From Candidatus Nitrosotenuis chungbukensis (GTDB lineage Archaea; Thermoproteota; Nitrososphaeria; Nitrososphaerales; Nitrosopumilaceae): a stretch of 64,000 nucleotides of DNA. The notes under the pieces are model-generated. The model searched no databases. It saw only the letters and a list, made by a program, of their open reading frames with translations, and was not told where the DNA came from. A program made the position numbers and the translations under genes. How positions within the stretch are numbered: the stretch's first letter is position 1; each line of letters opens with the position of its first letter. This document shows, one piece after another, positions 31,355 through 36,719 of this stretch. Location: NCBI RefSeq assembly GCF_000685395.1, contig NZ_AVSQ01000015.1, positions 124,001 to 188,000 of the forward strand, given 5' to 3'.

Positions 31355-31547
31355 GAAGTTGATTCAAAATAGTGAGATTTTAACTAATTTTTGATCGGTG
31401 CCGGTGTTTTTACAACTGGTTGATTTGTGCCGTTTAAACGAGTTTTATTCAATATTTGACGCATTTTAAGAGAACATTTGATCACACAAAAGCGAATTGA
31501 ATTTAACCTCCCTATTTACTATCTTCTTTTTCACTACAACAGCATTG

Positions 31548-32360
31548 ATGTCTCAAAGATATCGTCAAAAAATACATTATCGAGTTAAAGTAATCCCAAT
31601 TAAGAGAATTCATGTATGGGATGAGGCTCAGGCACGCTCCCTTGACAGGGATGGCATACGTGAGCTCGCAAAATCCATTAAAAACGAGGGATTGCAGAAT
31701 CCGCCAATGGTCCAAAAGGACGGACGTGGTCGCTTTCTCCTAATGTCTGGTCAAAGAAGACTTGCCGCCTTGAAGCTTCTAAGGGCAAAAAAAATTCCGG
31801 TTTTGGTATTGACAAAGGGATATGATCTTGAAAATGCAAAGGCTGCATCTGTGATTGAAAACCTGCATCGTAAAAACATGGCACCAAAAGACATGGCAAG
31901 CTCGTGTCGTTTTCTTGCCGAGAAAATGGGCGTGACTGGCGGTGCTCACTCGCTTGGAATCTCACGTAAAACTTTTAAAAAATATGTTGGTTTTGCAGCA
32001 CTTCCTGAAAAAATAAAGAACTTGGTTCCAGGCACCATATCTAGCAGCGTGGCAATCAGTCTTAATCAAATTATTCCAAATGTGAATAAAGCAGTACTTG
32101 TTGCAGAAAGGATTTCAGTGTTAGATGCACGTACACAAAAAAATTATCTTAGATTGCTCGCAAAGCATCCTTCTGCAAACCACCGCAAATTGCTCAAAAA
32201 AGCACGGATCCTTGCAGTTAGACGAACAGTTCCACTTACACTGTCGTCGTCATATGCAAAAAAACTCGAAAAAGAATCCCAGTATCGGGAAGAAGACCCA
32301 GAAAAATTAGCACGACAAATAGTGGTATCTTGGCTTTCAAAAAGAAGCCACAAGCGATAA
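31548..32360 (+). CDS. ParB/Spo0J-like nuclease-domain protein
   Basis: I start at ATG 31548 (about 270 residues); the in-frame upstream codons from 31497 encode a hydrophobic stretch that looks accidental, and a CTATTTACTATC box at 31512-31523 fits this ATG. The N-terminal ParB domain has IPIKRIHVWDEAQARSLD and the box LMSGQRRLAALKLL. A KorB-type helix-turn-helix (GISRKTFKKYVGFAALPEK) follows, then a basic C-terminus. No ParA is near. It lies upstream of NreA and the artubulin operon, hinting at chromosome handling. Confidence 0.82.
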   Translation: MSQRYRQKIHYRVKVIPIKRIHVWDEAQARSLDRDGIRELAKSIKNEGLQNPPMVQKDGRGRFLLMSGQRRLAALKLLRAKKIPVLVLTKGYDLENAKAASVIENLHRKNMAPKDMASSCRFLAEKMGVTGGAHSLGISRKTFKKYVGFAALPEKIKNLVPGTISSSVAISLNQIIPNVNKAVLVAERISVLDARTQKNYLRLLAKHPSANHRKLLKKARILAVRRTVPLTLSSSYAKKLEKESQYREEDPEKLARQIVVSWLSKRSHKR

Positions 32361-32468: not shown

Positions 32469-33629
32469 TTGAGCCCAAACGCGCAGGACATAAGAAAGTC
32501 AATTGAGCAGAACTGGAAAGAATATCTGTCAAGGTATGGGAATCTATTTTCGTCTGATTCGATTAGCGGATCTAGTCCGCCATCTGTCTTTGTGGGCTCG
32601 TATGGCTACCCTAAAGTCGGCGTGGGGCCGATGGTCCCGCCAATCCACGGTGACACTAGTCTTTTAGATCTGCCTGAAAAATGGTCTGGGAAAACACTGG
32701 AAGATATTGTAAATTTCAGGCTAAAACTAGTTCGAGGGGTGCAAAATGTTTCAGTTGCACATCCGCAGGGACGTTACATTGAAAGCCTTCAAGAACTTGC
32801 AATGTCGTCAAATACACCTGACTCTGACATTGTATTTGAAAAACACACATCTCCAATCACGACAATAGATGGCGAATCTGCGCCGTTTGGACCAATTGGT
32901 GAAGTAAAGACTGCCAAATTTTCCGGCATGTCTACAAACCAAACCATTGAAAAAACGTACTATGACAAGGATCTAAAAGCAGAAGATGCTGTGGTGTCGC
33001 TATATGAGAGCGGAATTGAAATTTCAAAAATCCAAAAATGTTTTAGCATTGGAATGTTTGGAAAAGAACGAAAACTCGTACCTACACGATGGAGCATTAC
33101 TGCGACAGATGACATCATATCGAAAAGTCTTGTTGCGGAAATTTTGGACTATCAAACAATCGACAGCTATCAAGTCTTTACACATGAGCACCTGGGAAAT
33201 ATTTTCTCAGTTTTCCTATTTCCGCACAGGTGGATTTTTGAAATGGAGGAGGCATGGTACACGGAAAAAGGAGAAATTGGCTTTGGCGCGGACGCCGAGG
33301 ATGCAAACGGAATTGATCACTATCCGAGCATAGCTGGGGCGTATTTTGCAGCAAAGCTTGGAGTCGCAGAACATCTAAAAAGAAAACAAAGACAGGCAGG
33401 TGTTTTAGTTCTGCGCGAAATAAGGCCAGAATATGCAGTGCCAGTCGGAGTGTGGCAAGTAAGGGAGGCAATTAGGGCAGCAATGTCAAAAATTCCAGTT
33501 TTGGCAGAAACAATAGATGACGGACTGAGCTTGGCCTGCAAACATATGAGCATTAGTAAAAGCGAATGGCTCACAAAAGGAACCACGCTGAAAATGCTAA
33601 AACAAAAGTCAATTGCAGACTATTTCTGA
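32469..33629 (+). CDS. nreA: DNA repair protein NreA
   Basis: This 386-residue archaeal Nre family protein (DUF650 and DUF651 domains) was linked to repair of mitomycin-type damage in haloarchaea. Features are SPPSVFVGSYGYPKVGVGPM, PGRYIESLQEL-like residues (PQGRYIESLQELAMS), VPTRWSITATDD, and EIRPEYAVPVGVWQVRE. The last eight residues QKSIADYF fit the PCNA-interacting (PIP) motif QxxIxxYF. It starts at TTG, downstream of a box AAACTAAATACC at 32435-32446. Confidence 0.92.
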   Translation: MSPNAQDIRKSIEQNWKEYLSRYGNLFSSDSISGSSPPSVFVGSYGYPKVGVGPMVPPIHGDTSLLDLPEKWSGKTLEDIVNFRLKLVRGVQNVSVAHPQGRYIESLQELAMSSNTPDSDIVFEKHTSPITTIDGESAPFGPIGEVKTAKFSGMSTNQTIEKTYYDKDLKAEDAVVSLYESGIEISKIQKCFSIGMFGKERKLVPTRWSITATDDIISKSLVAEILDYQTIDSYQVFTHEHLGNIFSVFLFPHRWIFEMEEAWYTEKGEIGFGADAEDANGIDHYPSIAGAYFAAKLGVAEHLKRKQRQAGVLVLREIRPEYAVPVGVWQVREAIRAAMSKIPVLAETIDDGLSLACKHMSISKSEWLTKGTTLKMLKQKSIADYF

Positions 33630-33697: not shown

Positions 33698-33784
33698 ATG
33701 ATTTGGACAACTGTCTACAACGATCAAGCAGAAACTTTACTTTCTTACACTGATTGGTTAAAGTCCAAACTGTCCGTGGTATAA
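33698..33784 (+). CDS. Putative 28-residue micro-protein, first gene of the artubulin operon
   Basis: ATG 33698 opens a 28-codon frame: MIWTTVYNDQAETLLSYTDW, then LKSKLSVV and TAA at 33782-33784. Only two bases separate the stop from the artubulin ATG, so ribosomes could pass from one to the other. The peptide could form a short amphipathic helix (residues 9-26) with two tryptophans. It may be a product in its own right or a regulatory leader ORF. It would be missed by any 60-codon cutoff. Confidence 0.5.
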   Translation: MIWTTVYNDQAETLLSYTDWLKSKLSVV

Positions 33785-33786
33785 TT

Positions 33787-35178
33787 ATGTCACAAGGTAC
33801 AGCACCACTCCCACCTGCACCGGTACTGATGACATGTTTTGGTCACTGTGGGATAGGCCTTGGAGCAGAATCCTATCGTAGGCTGTTGCTAGATGTAGGT
33901 GCAGACCCGCTAAAACCGGTTTTAAAAGACAGCAAGGATGAATCTAGAATTCTTAAAAGATATGGAAGTACGATTTTGCGTTTCCCTGGCACTTACACCG
34001 GGGGAGAGACACCCTTAATCCCAAGGGCGCTGCTAGTTGACCTTGACCCAAGAGCTGCTAATCTTATTTTACAGTCATATCCTGATCTTTTTGCACTGCG
34101 TGACAAGCACGTAATTCACGGAGCGGGCGGCGCTGCAAGAAACTGGGCGGAAGGACGCTATAGATTCAAAAACGAGATAACCCAAAAATGGGATTTTGCC
34201 AAACAACTATCTGCCCTGTCGCCAGAACCTGTCCGGGGATATGTGGTGCCATTTGCGATGGGTGGCGGAACTGGAAGCTCATTTGCATGCTCATTTATCG
34301 AGTTTATTCGAAGCAACACAAAAGAACATGCGACAATTGCAACACTGGGACTCCTTCCTGAATTTGGCTGGGACCCCGTGATCTTAGAAGCGGCCGCAAT
34401 TAACATTGTAATGAACCTTGAATACCAAATCAAGTTCAGCGACTGCTCAATACTGTTTTCAAATAAACGATTGAGAGAAATTTCACACAAGTTTGAAAAA
34501 CGCGTGGATAAAATTCCATCAATCATCGACGATCTACCAAAAGAACATGAAGTCGGGTGGAAGGACTACAAGGGAATGAATCTGATTGCGGCAAATGCCA
34601 TTTCCATGTACGTGTCATCATTTGCGAGAGAAACGGAATGGGACATGTCCAACTATAGGACGTGGCTTGCAACAAAACGCCCCAAGTTTGCAATCCCGTG
34701 GGCAATACCTGTCTTGCCTGATGAGGATCAGTGGAGCCTAGACCAGTTGACTGGCAACAAGCACAACACAATGGATTCTATCATTGACAACATTAGCAAA
34801 AAACAAGACGCATTGCTGTTTGACATTGATGAAACCGATGTTCGAAATTACGGCGGACCGAAGGACTCGTGCTGTGCACTAGTCAAGGTAAAGGGGGAAT
34901 TTGACATCAAAGAAAGAGAAGTTCTCAAACGAGTAATCAAGGACAAATTCAACATCGAGGATTCAAGAATGATATTTGTCAAGATTCCAATTCTAGATAA
35001 AGAACAGGCAAATGTCACAATACTTGTCAACACAAAGGCAATAGGTCCTAAGATTTTGGACATCGCGCGCGAGGCAGAAGAATCCTGGGATGCCTACAAG
35101 GACGAGTACGGCAAATGGGGACTGACCACCGAGGACTTTAAGCAAAGCTTGATGGACGTAGTACACCAGTTTAGCTGA
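33787..35178 (+). CDS. Artubulin: archaeal tubulin homologue
   Basis: This 463-residue GTP-binding cytoskeletal protein of the tubulin/FtsZ superfamily is closer to tubulin than FtsZ. By eye it aligns with tubulin throughout: GHCGIGLGAESYRRL (19-33) with GQCGNQIG; PRALLVDLDP (79-88) with VPRAVLVDLEP; GAGGAARNWAEGRY (112-124) with GKEDAANNYARGHY; the G-loop MGGGTGSS (158-165); and SDCSILFSNKRL (218-229) with SDCAFMVDNEAI. The T7 segment reads ETEWDMSNY (282-290): D286 stays, but the catalytic acid position seems to be N289. ATG 33787 was preferred over an upstream in-frame TTG (33754). A coiled-coil gene follows 16 bases on. Confidence 0.9.
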   Translation: MSQGTAPLPPAPVLMTCFGHCGIGLGAESYRRLLLDVGADPLKPVLKDSKDESRILKRYGSTILRFPGTYTGGETPLIPRALLVDLDPRAANLILQSYPDLFALRDKHVIHGAGGAARNWAEGRYRFKNEITQKWDFAKQLSALSPEPVRGYVVPFAMGGGTGSSFACSFIEFIRSNTKEHATIATLGLLPEFGWDPVILEAAAINIVMNLEYQIKFSDCSILFSNKRLREISHKFEKRVDKIPSIIDDLPKEHEVGWKDYKGMNLIAANAISMYVSSFARETEWDMSNYRTWLATKRPKFAIPWAIPVLPDEDQWSLDQLTGNKHNTMDSIIDNISKKQDALLFDIDETDVRNYGGPKDSCCALVKVKGEFDIKEREVLKRVIKDKFNIEDSRMIFVKIPILDKEQANVTILVNTKAIGPKILDIAREAEESWDAYKDEYGKWGLTTEDFKQSLMDVVHQFS

Positions 35179-35194
35179 GACAGGTTTCATAATT

Positions 35195-35743
35195 ATGGCT
35201 GATTTCAATTTTTTAGAAGATTTGGCAAAAAAGGTCAAGTCTGAGCGAATTAACCTGCATCAAATAGATGAGGAACTAAAGTCGGTAAACATGCGGCTCC
35301 ACGAGCTGCCGCTAAAAAAACCGACAGAATCAACATTTGCAAAAATGATTGGAATCCAATACGAGGACCAAATGGAGCAATTAGAAAAAATGAAACTCAA
35401 TCTTGAATCGCAGAAGGATCAGATCACATCCTCAATTAAAAAAGACACTGACACGTTCATTACCGAGATGAGCTCCCCAGAACTGATAATCCCACTTGAT
35501 CCAAAACCTGTATTCCGAGATGGAAATGTCTTGTTCCATTACCGCGACTCTGCAAAATTTCAGAACTTGTTTGACTTTCTGGGTGAATTGCTTGGCTTGA
35601 GCATTCCACTAGTTGTAAAAGACGTGCTGCTCTCTTCATCTGAAATAATAGTGAAGGTCTCAAACGAATATGACGCAAAACAAAAGTTCATCAGCGGCAT
35701 AAATGAGATACAAAAGACCCTGACCATAAAGAGAAAACAGTAG
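35195..35743 (+). CDS. Coiled-coil protein of the artubulin operon
   Basis: The 182-residue protein has two helical coiled-coil stretches (FLEDLAKKVKSERINLHQID, residues 5-35; YEDQMEQLEKMKLNLESQKD, residues 56-80). A globular C-terminal alpha/beta domain follows (ELIIPLDPKPVFRDGNVLFH to KQKFISGINEIQKTLTI). No signal or membrane segment is present. It begins 16 bases after artubulin without its own promoter box, so the two should be co-transcribed. An adaptor or regulator of the filament is my inference; I recognise no named family. Confidence 0.75.
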   Translation: MADFNFLEDLAKKVKSERINLHQIDEELKSVNMRLHELPLKKPTESTFAKMIGIQYEDQMEQLEKMKLNLESQKDQITSSIKKDTDTFITEMSSPELIIPLDPKPVFRDGNVLFHYRDSAKFQNLFDFLGELLGLSIPLVVKDVLLSSSEIIVKVSNEYDAKQKFISGINEIQKTLTIKRKQ

Positions 35744-35801: not shown

Positions 35802-36719
35802 TTGCAAAATAAAACCCTCCTTCTTGCAATTATAATAATTATCAGTCCTGTCTTGTTTGCACTTGTAGTATATCCTGACACGTTTAGCCTAAGCTGGAAC
35901 CAGGGGCGCGGAGGATTTCTTTTTGCAATGGCATTCATCGTGGCAGAGATAATTGGAGTTAAACTTCACGTGTCTAAAAAAAGAATACTTGCAACCATCC
36001 CCCTAGCTGGTGCAGCCATCGCATATCTTGTAATACGTGAACACGGTCTGAAGGACTATCTTGTAGGTGTTGCCCCTCAGTTTAATGTCAACCTTGTGGA
36101 CTCGTGGACATGGATGTGGGATTTTATTATAATGGGGGCATTTTTGATTGCCGCTGTCAGCATACTGTTTGGGAAAAGGTGGATACGTATTGCTCCTGCA
36201 GGCCCAATCTTTCTTTGTGGCAGCGCCGCAATTCTGTCCCTTGACGCCTTTTTTCCATACGACACACTTGGACCACTCCAATACGTGGTGCCGTATCTGG
36301 TAAAGGCAAATGTTTGGATCATTAACAGTTTTGATCTTGGCACTGCGATTGCTAAAGAAAACCTGATGTTACTGCGAGGAGAACACGGGCCAATGGCCCT
36401 ACAGGTATTTTGGCCGTCTGCTGGAGTACACAGCATCATAATTTACTCGCTTGTCATGATGGCATTTTTGCTAAAGATGAACATAGAGCGAAAACGCAAA
36501 GCGGTGTACTTTGTTATTGGAATACTTGGAACGATTGGCATAAACATGATTAGGATATTTTCTCTATCCGTATTCGTACTCAAGGTTTCGACTGATCCTA
36601 CCAAGTTTGAAGAATTTCACGGTATTGCAGGAGAAATAATGTTCCTTCCTTGGATTTTCATATTCCTGCTCATCGTAACGTCGATTGAAACAAAACGAAT
36701 GAAACGGCTTGTGTCCTAA
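35802..36719 (+). CDS. Thaumarchaeosortase (exosortase/archaeosortase family)
   Basis: This 305-residue polytopic membrane protein is predicted to process C-terminal sorting signals of exported proteins. Exosortases use a membrane Cys-Arg-His triad. Here the equivalents are WPSAGVHS with S206 where the Cys is expected, NMIRIF with R251, and FHGIAGE with H273. The whole order and spacing match the family, so the Ser substitution looks genuine. A TTTTTATTC box near 35772-35780 supports the leaderless TTG start. The gene overlaps dinB by 4 bases (convergent). Confidence 0.85.
   Translation: MQNKTLLLAIIIIISPVLFALVVYPDTFSLSWNQGRGGFLFAMAFIVAEIIGVKLHVSKKRILATIPLAGAAIAYLVIREHGLKDYLVGVAPQFNVNLVDSWTWMWDFIIMGAFLIAAVSILFGKRWIRIAPAGPIFLCGSAAILSLDAFFPYDTLGPLQYVVPYLVKANVWIINSFDLGTAIAKENLMLLRGEHGPMALQVFWPSAGVHSIIIYSLVMMAFLLKMNIERKRKAVYFVIGILGTIGINMIRIFSLSVFVLKVSTDPTKFEEFHGIAGEIMFLPWIFIFLLIVTSIETKRMKRLVS

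Follow-up and report, generated by a model that had tools for sequence, protein, structure and literature searches.

Artubulin and a constant hairpin partner suggest a two-part cytoskeletal cassette in Nitrosotenuis and related archaea

We found that the tubulin homologue encoded in a 64,000-nucleotide stretch of the Candidatus Nitrosotenuis chungbukensis genome (hereafter the window; contig NZ_AVSQ01000015.1, positions 124,001 to 188,000) is, judged by its closest relatives, an artubulin, and that artubulin and the coiled-coil protein encoded directly downstream (hereafter the partner) are, across the loci compared, kept together while the other neighbours change. This suggests that artubulin and the hairpin-shaped partner make up a two-part cell-skeleton unit, with both parts acquired or lost together. 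Artubulin itself was known before; the new part is its constant partner, the cassette-less junction seen in related genomes and the promoter arrangement. As an explanation of the whole we lean, with somewhat more confidence than doubt, towards a two-gene cytoskeletal cassette in which an artubulin filament and a hairpin linker would be expressed from a two-start promoter with an upstream ORF (uORF). The layout described in the initial annotation, i.e., a 28-codon ORF (ORF28), the tubulin homologue and a 182-residue gene separated by gaps of 2 and 16 bases, was confirmed to the coordinate (Table 1).

Table 1. Features of the artubulin locus and its boundaries, in positions of the window.
Feature	Position	Strand	Remarks
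Nre gene	32469..33629	+	left cassette boundary, outside the cassette
Distal TATA-like box P1, TTAAA	33670..33674	+	28 nt 5' of the ORF28 ATG
ORF28	33698..33784	+	ATG, 28 codons, TAA; ends 2 nt 5' of the artubulin start; putative leaderless-type uORF
Conserved leader element, almost ungapped	33711..33764	+	from the alignment of upstream regions; putative promoter element
Proximal TATA-like box P2, TTAAAG	33758..33763	+	29 nt 5' of the artubulin ATG
Artubulin gene	33787..35178	+	ATG start, 463 aa
T4 loop GGGTGSS of artubulin, GTP-binding	34261..34281	+	from sequence
T7-loop/H8 region of artubulin, RETEWDMSNYRTWL	34627..34668	+	from alignment; presumed register with alpha-tubulin
Artubulin partner gene	35195..35743	+	182 aa; coiled-coil hairpin and small alpha/beta head
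Hairpin tip of partner, residues 36-62	35300..35380	+	from model and conservation
Head domain of partner, residues 106-181	35510..35737	+	from model; inside the part common to short relatives without artubulin
Thaumarchaeosortase gene	35802..36719	+	504 bits; right cassette boundary, outside the cassette

The Pfam family Tubulin (PF00091) matched the window protein at 55.2 bits against a cut-off of 33, indicating a Tubulin/FtsZ GTPase domain, while NCBIfam offered no model for it. Among sequences of solved structure, the top relatives were the Asgard proteins AtubA and AtubB (57 bits with phmmer and 81 bits with a profile), followed by eukaryotic tubulins, and the best 60 of the 170 matches were all named tubulin or tubulin-like. 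The predicted structure (47 homologues; mean pLDDT 70) is weak in the GTPase half, and the 50 fold matches listed for the full-length model were tubulin entries, aligned over the whole length of the model. It is these best solved relatives and fold matches that place the protein with tubulins rather than with FtsZ or CetZ; in this respect the judgement made by eye in the initial annotation, that the protein is closer to tubulin than to FtsZ, proved sound. Relatives 77–79% identical over ~457 residues are encoded at loci labelled Nitrosarchaeum (L211, L213, L214, and L215), and named Nitrosotalea loci also carry artubulin relatives at 77–79%; on account of these relatives, the window tubulin is best assigned to the already known artubulin family and not to FtsZ or CetZ. 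The FtsZ of the window genome is a separate gene (contig C20, open frame of 317 aa). Two viral contigs (L305 and L306) show weak similarity to artubulin, 25–26% over 99 residues, and a plasmid search for mobile carriers gave no match.

The GGGTGSS loop of artubulin, which we take to be the T4 loop, is intact in sequence. In the T7-loop/H8 region the stretch RETEWDMSNYRTWL is almost invariant across the alignment, and the model starts a helix here with low local confidence. Asn289 presumably corresponds, in the tubulin register, to the position of the catalytic Glu254 of alpha-tubulin, and the catalytic acid of T7 thus seems to be replaced by asparagine; this reading combines sequence with tubulin motifs in a region where the structure model is weak (pLDDT 54, residues 281–290). 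By contrast, the T4 loop with which the resident FtsZ (L001) would bind GTP is degraded and reads ANLAGRAG. With the GTP loop of FtsZ lost in this genome, artubulin may be the sole working tubulin-type GTPase in these cells. The FtsZ of Nitrosopumilus is likewise described as having neither the GTP motif nor the T7 loop (PMC3684127).

Artubulin was found in 72 of the 250 genomes of the family, distributed over 9 of 22 genera, and all 72 encode the partner. When 400 genomes of the order were sampled, with artubulin called at E ≤ 1e-10 and the partner by profile at E ≤ 1e-5, the partner was present in 94 of 94 artubulin genomes, its identity dropping to ~25% across the sample. Such co-occurrence (72/72 and 94/94) excludes chance as an explanation of the pair. 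To look beyond the order, 220 genomes of the phylum were searched; artubulin was present in 12, and every one of these belongs to the same family as the window genome. At each of the 74 loci readable for both genes, the partner lies on the same strand 2–18 nt downstream of artubulin; a search for artubulin loci devoid of the coiled-coil gene, proposed along with the original operon claim, returned none among these 74. A few genomes have artubulin and partner on different contig ends, or cut. Neighbourhoods were compared at 77 loci, with both genes seen at 73; of the remaining four, three are truncated at contig ends, while at L158 the ORF caller chose an overlapping frame and artubulin is detected by tblastn. 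Two genomes, G251 (L148 and L149) and G035, possess two artubulin loci each, and every one of these loci has its own partner. The pairwise distances of the two proteins correlate strongly (r 0.98 over 74 loci), as expected for any vertically inherited neighbours.

The surroundings of the pair differ between groups, the genus-type labels used here being partly indirect, via similarity to named loci. Nre and thaumarchaeosortase enclose the pair in Nitrosotenuis-type genomes. A Snf7 gene of the CdvB1/B2 kind precedes it in Nitrosarchaeum-type genomes (8 of 77 loci in one genus, with one member tested), while in Nitrosotalea-type genomes the preceding genes are a small one with a weak SHOCT match and another that is TPR-like by eye. 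A VWA gene and a 312-aa gene flank the pair in family f10. We also noted that a ParB_N-domain gene (window 31497–32360) adjoins Nre, and that no more than 4 of the compared loci have genes that cluster with it. Snf7/CdvB was considered as a general artubulin partner and rejected, being a neighbour in one genus. No Snf7 gene was found beside the window artubulin, and the only Snf7-like match of this genome, located on another contig, scores 19.9 bits, below the cut-off.

Two genomes of the same genus with no artubulin match, G229 and G218, have Nre and thaumarchaeosortase ~90 and ~120 bp apart, and in G012, which belongs to another genus, the distance is ~260 bp. The ~900 bp that separate the two genes in G231 were counted against the cassette reading. 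Since the flanking genes are 90–120 bp apart in G229 and G218, the promoter, artubulin and partner would form a cassette, and the comparison suggests that at this site they behave as a block of ~2 kb, inserted or deleted as a whole.

The region upstream of artubulin contains an element of ~54 nt, almost ungapped and ending in TTAAAG, which we detected in 47 of the 57 loci with an upstream region. RNAalifold predicted zero pairs for the leader (41 sequences), and a comparison with Rfam gave nothing near gathering score; on these two results the leader was rejected as a structured RNA. A 10–11 bp periodicity of the conserved positions was not significant (p 0.08). Before ATG starts the TTAAA motif peaks at -29 (46 matches for 293 starts of the fetched loci, many of them mutually homologous). 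The artubulin box itself lies at -27 to -29 before ATG in 13 of 14 same-genus loci and mostly at -38 (26 matches) in the remaining ones; over the 57 loci, artubulin starts with TTG in 32 cases and with ATG in 25. Box spacings of this kind would look like leaderless mRNA in one group and like a short leader in the other, and the window artubulin mRNA transcribed from P2 is predicted to be leaderless. The initial annotation had proposed one transcript starting from the box before ORF28. That box (P1) does exist, but there is a second one, P2, and because it stands 29 nt before the artubulin ATG, transcription from P1 represents one of two possible starts. In eight Nitrosarchaeum-type loci (L098, L102, L104, L105, L107, L108, L110, and L115) we observed another conserved leader, with TTCTACTCTCTTATTAATGAGCAG in most of them and a Snf7-like cluster upstream. 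At the Nitrosotalea-type locus L106 the leader element stands twice in tandem before artubulin; an N separates the two copies, and the repeat may be an artefact of assembly.

A sequence-model search detected a second, weaker copy of the element at corresponding places in 12 members of the genus, the window genome included. In the latter it is located on the minus strand of contig C21 (C21:50724-50778, or L134:6225-6279; 22 bits, E 2e-4). A gene with a signal-peptide-like start follows 21–32 nt downstream of this copy in 11 of the 12 genomes, the twelfth being interrupted by a contig end; in the window genome the product is a CFI-box-CTERM domain protein (68 bits). The second copy is also present in G218, where the artubulin match is absent. 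Five further matches in other genomes (E 0.0009–0.009) look like chance.

The frame of ORF28 stops 1–2 nt before artubulin in 39 of the 47 element-bearing loci, where ~2 would be expected from shuffling of the 3' stretch that links the element to the artubulin start, and all 39 have an in-frame start upstream; the counts by genus are 14/14 for the window genus and 5/5, 1/1, and 19/27 for three others, and the loci are related, not independent. The ORF28 start falls 27–29 nt downstream of the distal TTAAA at 14 of 14 loci from the window genus, against an expectation of 0.8. Two other element-bearing genera show no such start (0/5 and 0/1 loci), their frame being open and the start placed otherwise, while Nitrosotalea-type genomes have an ORF of the same layout in 16 of 27 loci, against 1.6 expected, and lack it in 11 of 27; for 7 of the 16 the ORF uses a different frame. 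A stop within the first 48 nt of the frame occurs in 4 of 47 loci. At the 10 of 57 loci that have no element, and also in more distant families, ORF28 is absent or different. Of the three frames, that of ORF28 has the smallest proportion of synonymous changes (0.196, as compared to 0.32 and 0.36 in the other frames), from which it follows that conservation does not act on the peptide; a conserved peptide gene was rejected on this ground and on conservation at the nucleotide level. The expectation that the 28-codon ORF keeps its place beside artubulin is thus upheld for the frame stop in four genera, but not for the peptide, and not at the loci where the ORF is missing or different. We read ORF28 as a putative regulatory or coupling uORF on a longer mRNA isoform. 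A doubtful alternative, to which we still give some weight, is that ORF28 is untranslated and represents an accidental reading of a conserved operator and TATA box. The element is indeed conserved in nucleotides with no codon periodicity (mean entropy 0.72–0.79 in every phase; p 0.94 for period 3), the low synonymous share agrees with such an origin, 8 of 47 loci have the frame interrupted or out of place, and the copy of the element found elsewhere has a stop in the ORF28 frame. Against this alternative stand the frequency of the stop before artubulin, with its in-frame starts, and the constant distance from the distal box in the same-genus loci, although the loci are related.

The partner was modelled with much higher confidence than artubulin (51 homologues; mean pLDDT 91.9). 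Helices 4–52 and 60–92 form a hairpin, after which residues 106–181 fold into strands and helices of an alpha/beta head. Conservation is lowest in the second stalk helix (0.38) and reaches 0.50 in the first, 0.57 in the tip (residues 36–62) and 0.56–0.61 in the head; two conserved ends on a variable stalk would fit a linker role. Pfam has no family for the window protein. Over 51 members of the partner alignment, Snf7 is absent from the best 25 of the 32 Pfam families listed, and weak Pfam matches in a few members were taken as coiled-coil noise. Foldseek gave no match at E ≤ 0.001 in the PDB library, and VIA-align returned mostly helical-hairpin rows over residues 1–99 (best Z 8.6), possibly a common arrangement; neither sequence nor fold searches revealed a convincing solved relative.

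Relatives of the partner also occur apart from artubulin, since in the order sample 45 genomes have a partner-profile match and no artubulin match. Family f8 comprises 34 such genomes with short copies that match mainly residues 58–181, and family f2 another 6 with full-length copies. Among 18 fetched loci of the 40 in these two families (L260-L265 of f2; L266-L275, L278, and L279 of f8), no artubulin-like protein was encountered within six called genes on each side. Each of the six f2 genomes has one tubulin-domain gene, and the three that were translated are FtsZ-like with zero score against the artubulin profile. At L260-L265 a gene that appears radical-SAM-like by eye precedes the full-length relative. 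Three genomes with no artubulin (G213, G026, and G261) retain only degraded pieces of the partner, and the fetched stretches around these broken copies hold no artubulin pieces; in G274 and G361 the partner is at a contig edge and the presence of artubulin cannot be judged. By these profile matches, the partner head is more widely spread than the artubulin module, and f2 keeps the hairpin with no artubulin. Judging from the 6 full-length and 34 short copies, the activity of the partner does not always need artubulin. The coiled-coil protein had been suggested as a possible dedicated adaptor of the filament, and this idea is supported by its place beside artubulin, kept at 74 of 74 loci, but not by its relatives in 40 genomes devoid of artubulin.

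The shape and the distribution of the partner bear on what it might do. A rather unlikely possibility is that it regulates assembly, in the manner of stathmin-like proteins or chaperones, by holding free artubulin subunits or capping filament ends, with the fixed ratio given by a shared mRNA preventing runaway polymerisation. The spacing of 2–18 nt between the genes would favour such a ratio, the long hairpin of helices and its conserved tip would be apt for touching a single subunit or a pair of them, and the partner is degraded in the three genomes that miss artubulin; yet the head, about as conserved as the tip and present in shorter proteins with no artubulin, points to a second ligand. 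Least probable among the alternatives is that artubulin and partner share only a transcript, both being useful in the same lineages while the partner functions independently, as its relatives in two families and the 18 artubulin-free loci might imply; against this stand the 94/94 co-occurrence, the retention of the pair through changes of neighbourhood and at both loci of the two genomes that have two, and the degraded pieces of the partner where artubulin is missing.

We infer that the most likely function of the module is that of an artubulin filament with a two-ended linker. According to this preferred reading, artubulin would bind GTP via the intact GGGTGS loop and, as tubulin does, polymerise head to tail. 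The partner would bind the polymer, most likely by its conserved hairpin tip, and its conserved head would hold something else, for instance another filament, a further protein or the membrane. As the T7 catalytic acid seems replaced by asparagine, the filaments may be long-lived unless the partner alters that. Transcription from the proximal box would give a leaderless artubulin-partner mRNA, and that from the distal box a longer mRNA beginning at the uORF, the stop of which would deliver ribosomes to the artubulin start. A more far-reaching synthesis of these elements, which we put forward as quite tentative, is that of a self-contained two-part cytoskeleton moving between genome positions as one cassette. 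Its partner, the sole constant companion of artubulin with a head more widely spread than the association itself, would supply linking and perhaps control of GTP turnover at a T7 loop devoid of the usual acid, and its expression would be set by two promoters and a leaderless uORF (of which the frame is kept and the peptide is not) together with that of the secreted-protein gene sharing the element.

Since 2012 it has been debated whether artubulins might be related to the ancestor of eukaryotic tubulin, and the literature consulted, as far as its text was available, yielded neither a tested function nor a general partner. The Nitrosarchaeum artubulins were described by Yutin and Koonin (2012), with Snf7 as the only functional partner named in the available part of that paper (PMC3349469). 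The window protein belongs to the same family, as shown above by its identity to Nitrosarchaeum relatives, and is likewise tubulin-like and distinct from the resident FtsZ; it differs in having no adjacent Snf7/CdvB gene, and in this it resembles the artubulin of Nitrosotenuis uzonensis, for which the lack of a neighbouring Snf7/CdvB gene was already reported (PMC3835317). The hairpin gene, the cassette-less junction and the leader element do not appear in the available parts of either description (PMC3349469 and PMC3835317), and the artubulin literature searched, preprints being outside its scope, gave no account of the hairpin partner in the text accessible to us. As the partner accompanies artubulin in every artubulin genome examined, it is the right protein for biochemists to co-express with it.

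Among the Asgard tubulins, including OdinTubulin (PMC13394414 and PMC9871819), AtubA and AtubB are the best solved relatives of artubulin by sequence, with the similarity limited to the GTPase half. In contrast to AtubA/AtubB, the pair found here consists of a tubulin and a hairpin protein and not of two tubulins. The arrangement is reminiscent of the bacterial BtubA/B operon, in which prokaryotic tubulins are likewise accompanied by an accessory gene, the third of the operon, encoding a TPR protein named "bacterial kinesin light chain" (PMC3349469); unlike this TPR accessory, the protein encoded here consists of an alpha/beta head on a coiled-coil hairpin and has no Pfam match. As for the CdvB/Snf7 (ESCRT-III) system, its link to artubulin is a Snf7 protein encoded upstream in one genus, and a constant partner weakens the Snf7/ESCRT idea, which was based on that neighbour. 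Unlike CdvB/Snf7, this constant partner is encoded downstream of artubulin, has no Snf7 match and is modelled as a hairpin followed by an alpha/beta head.
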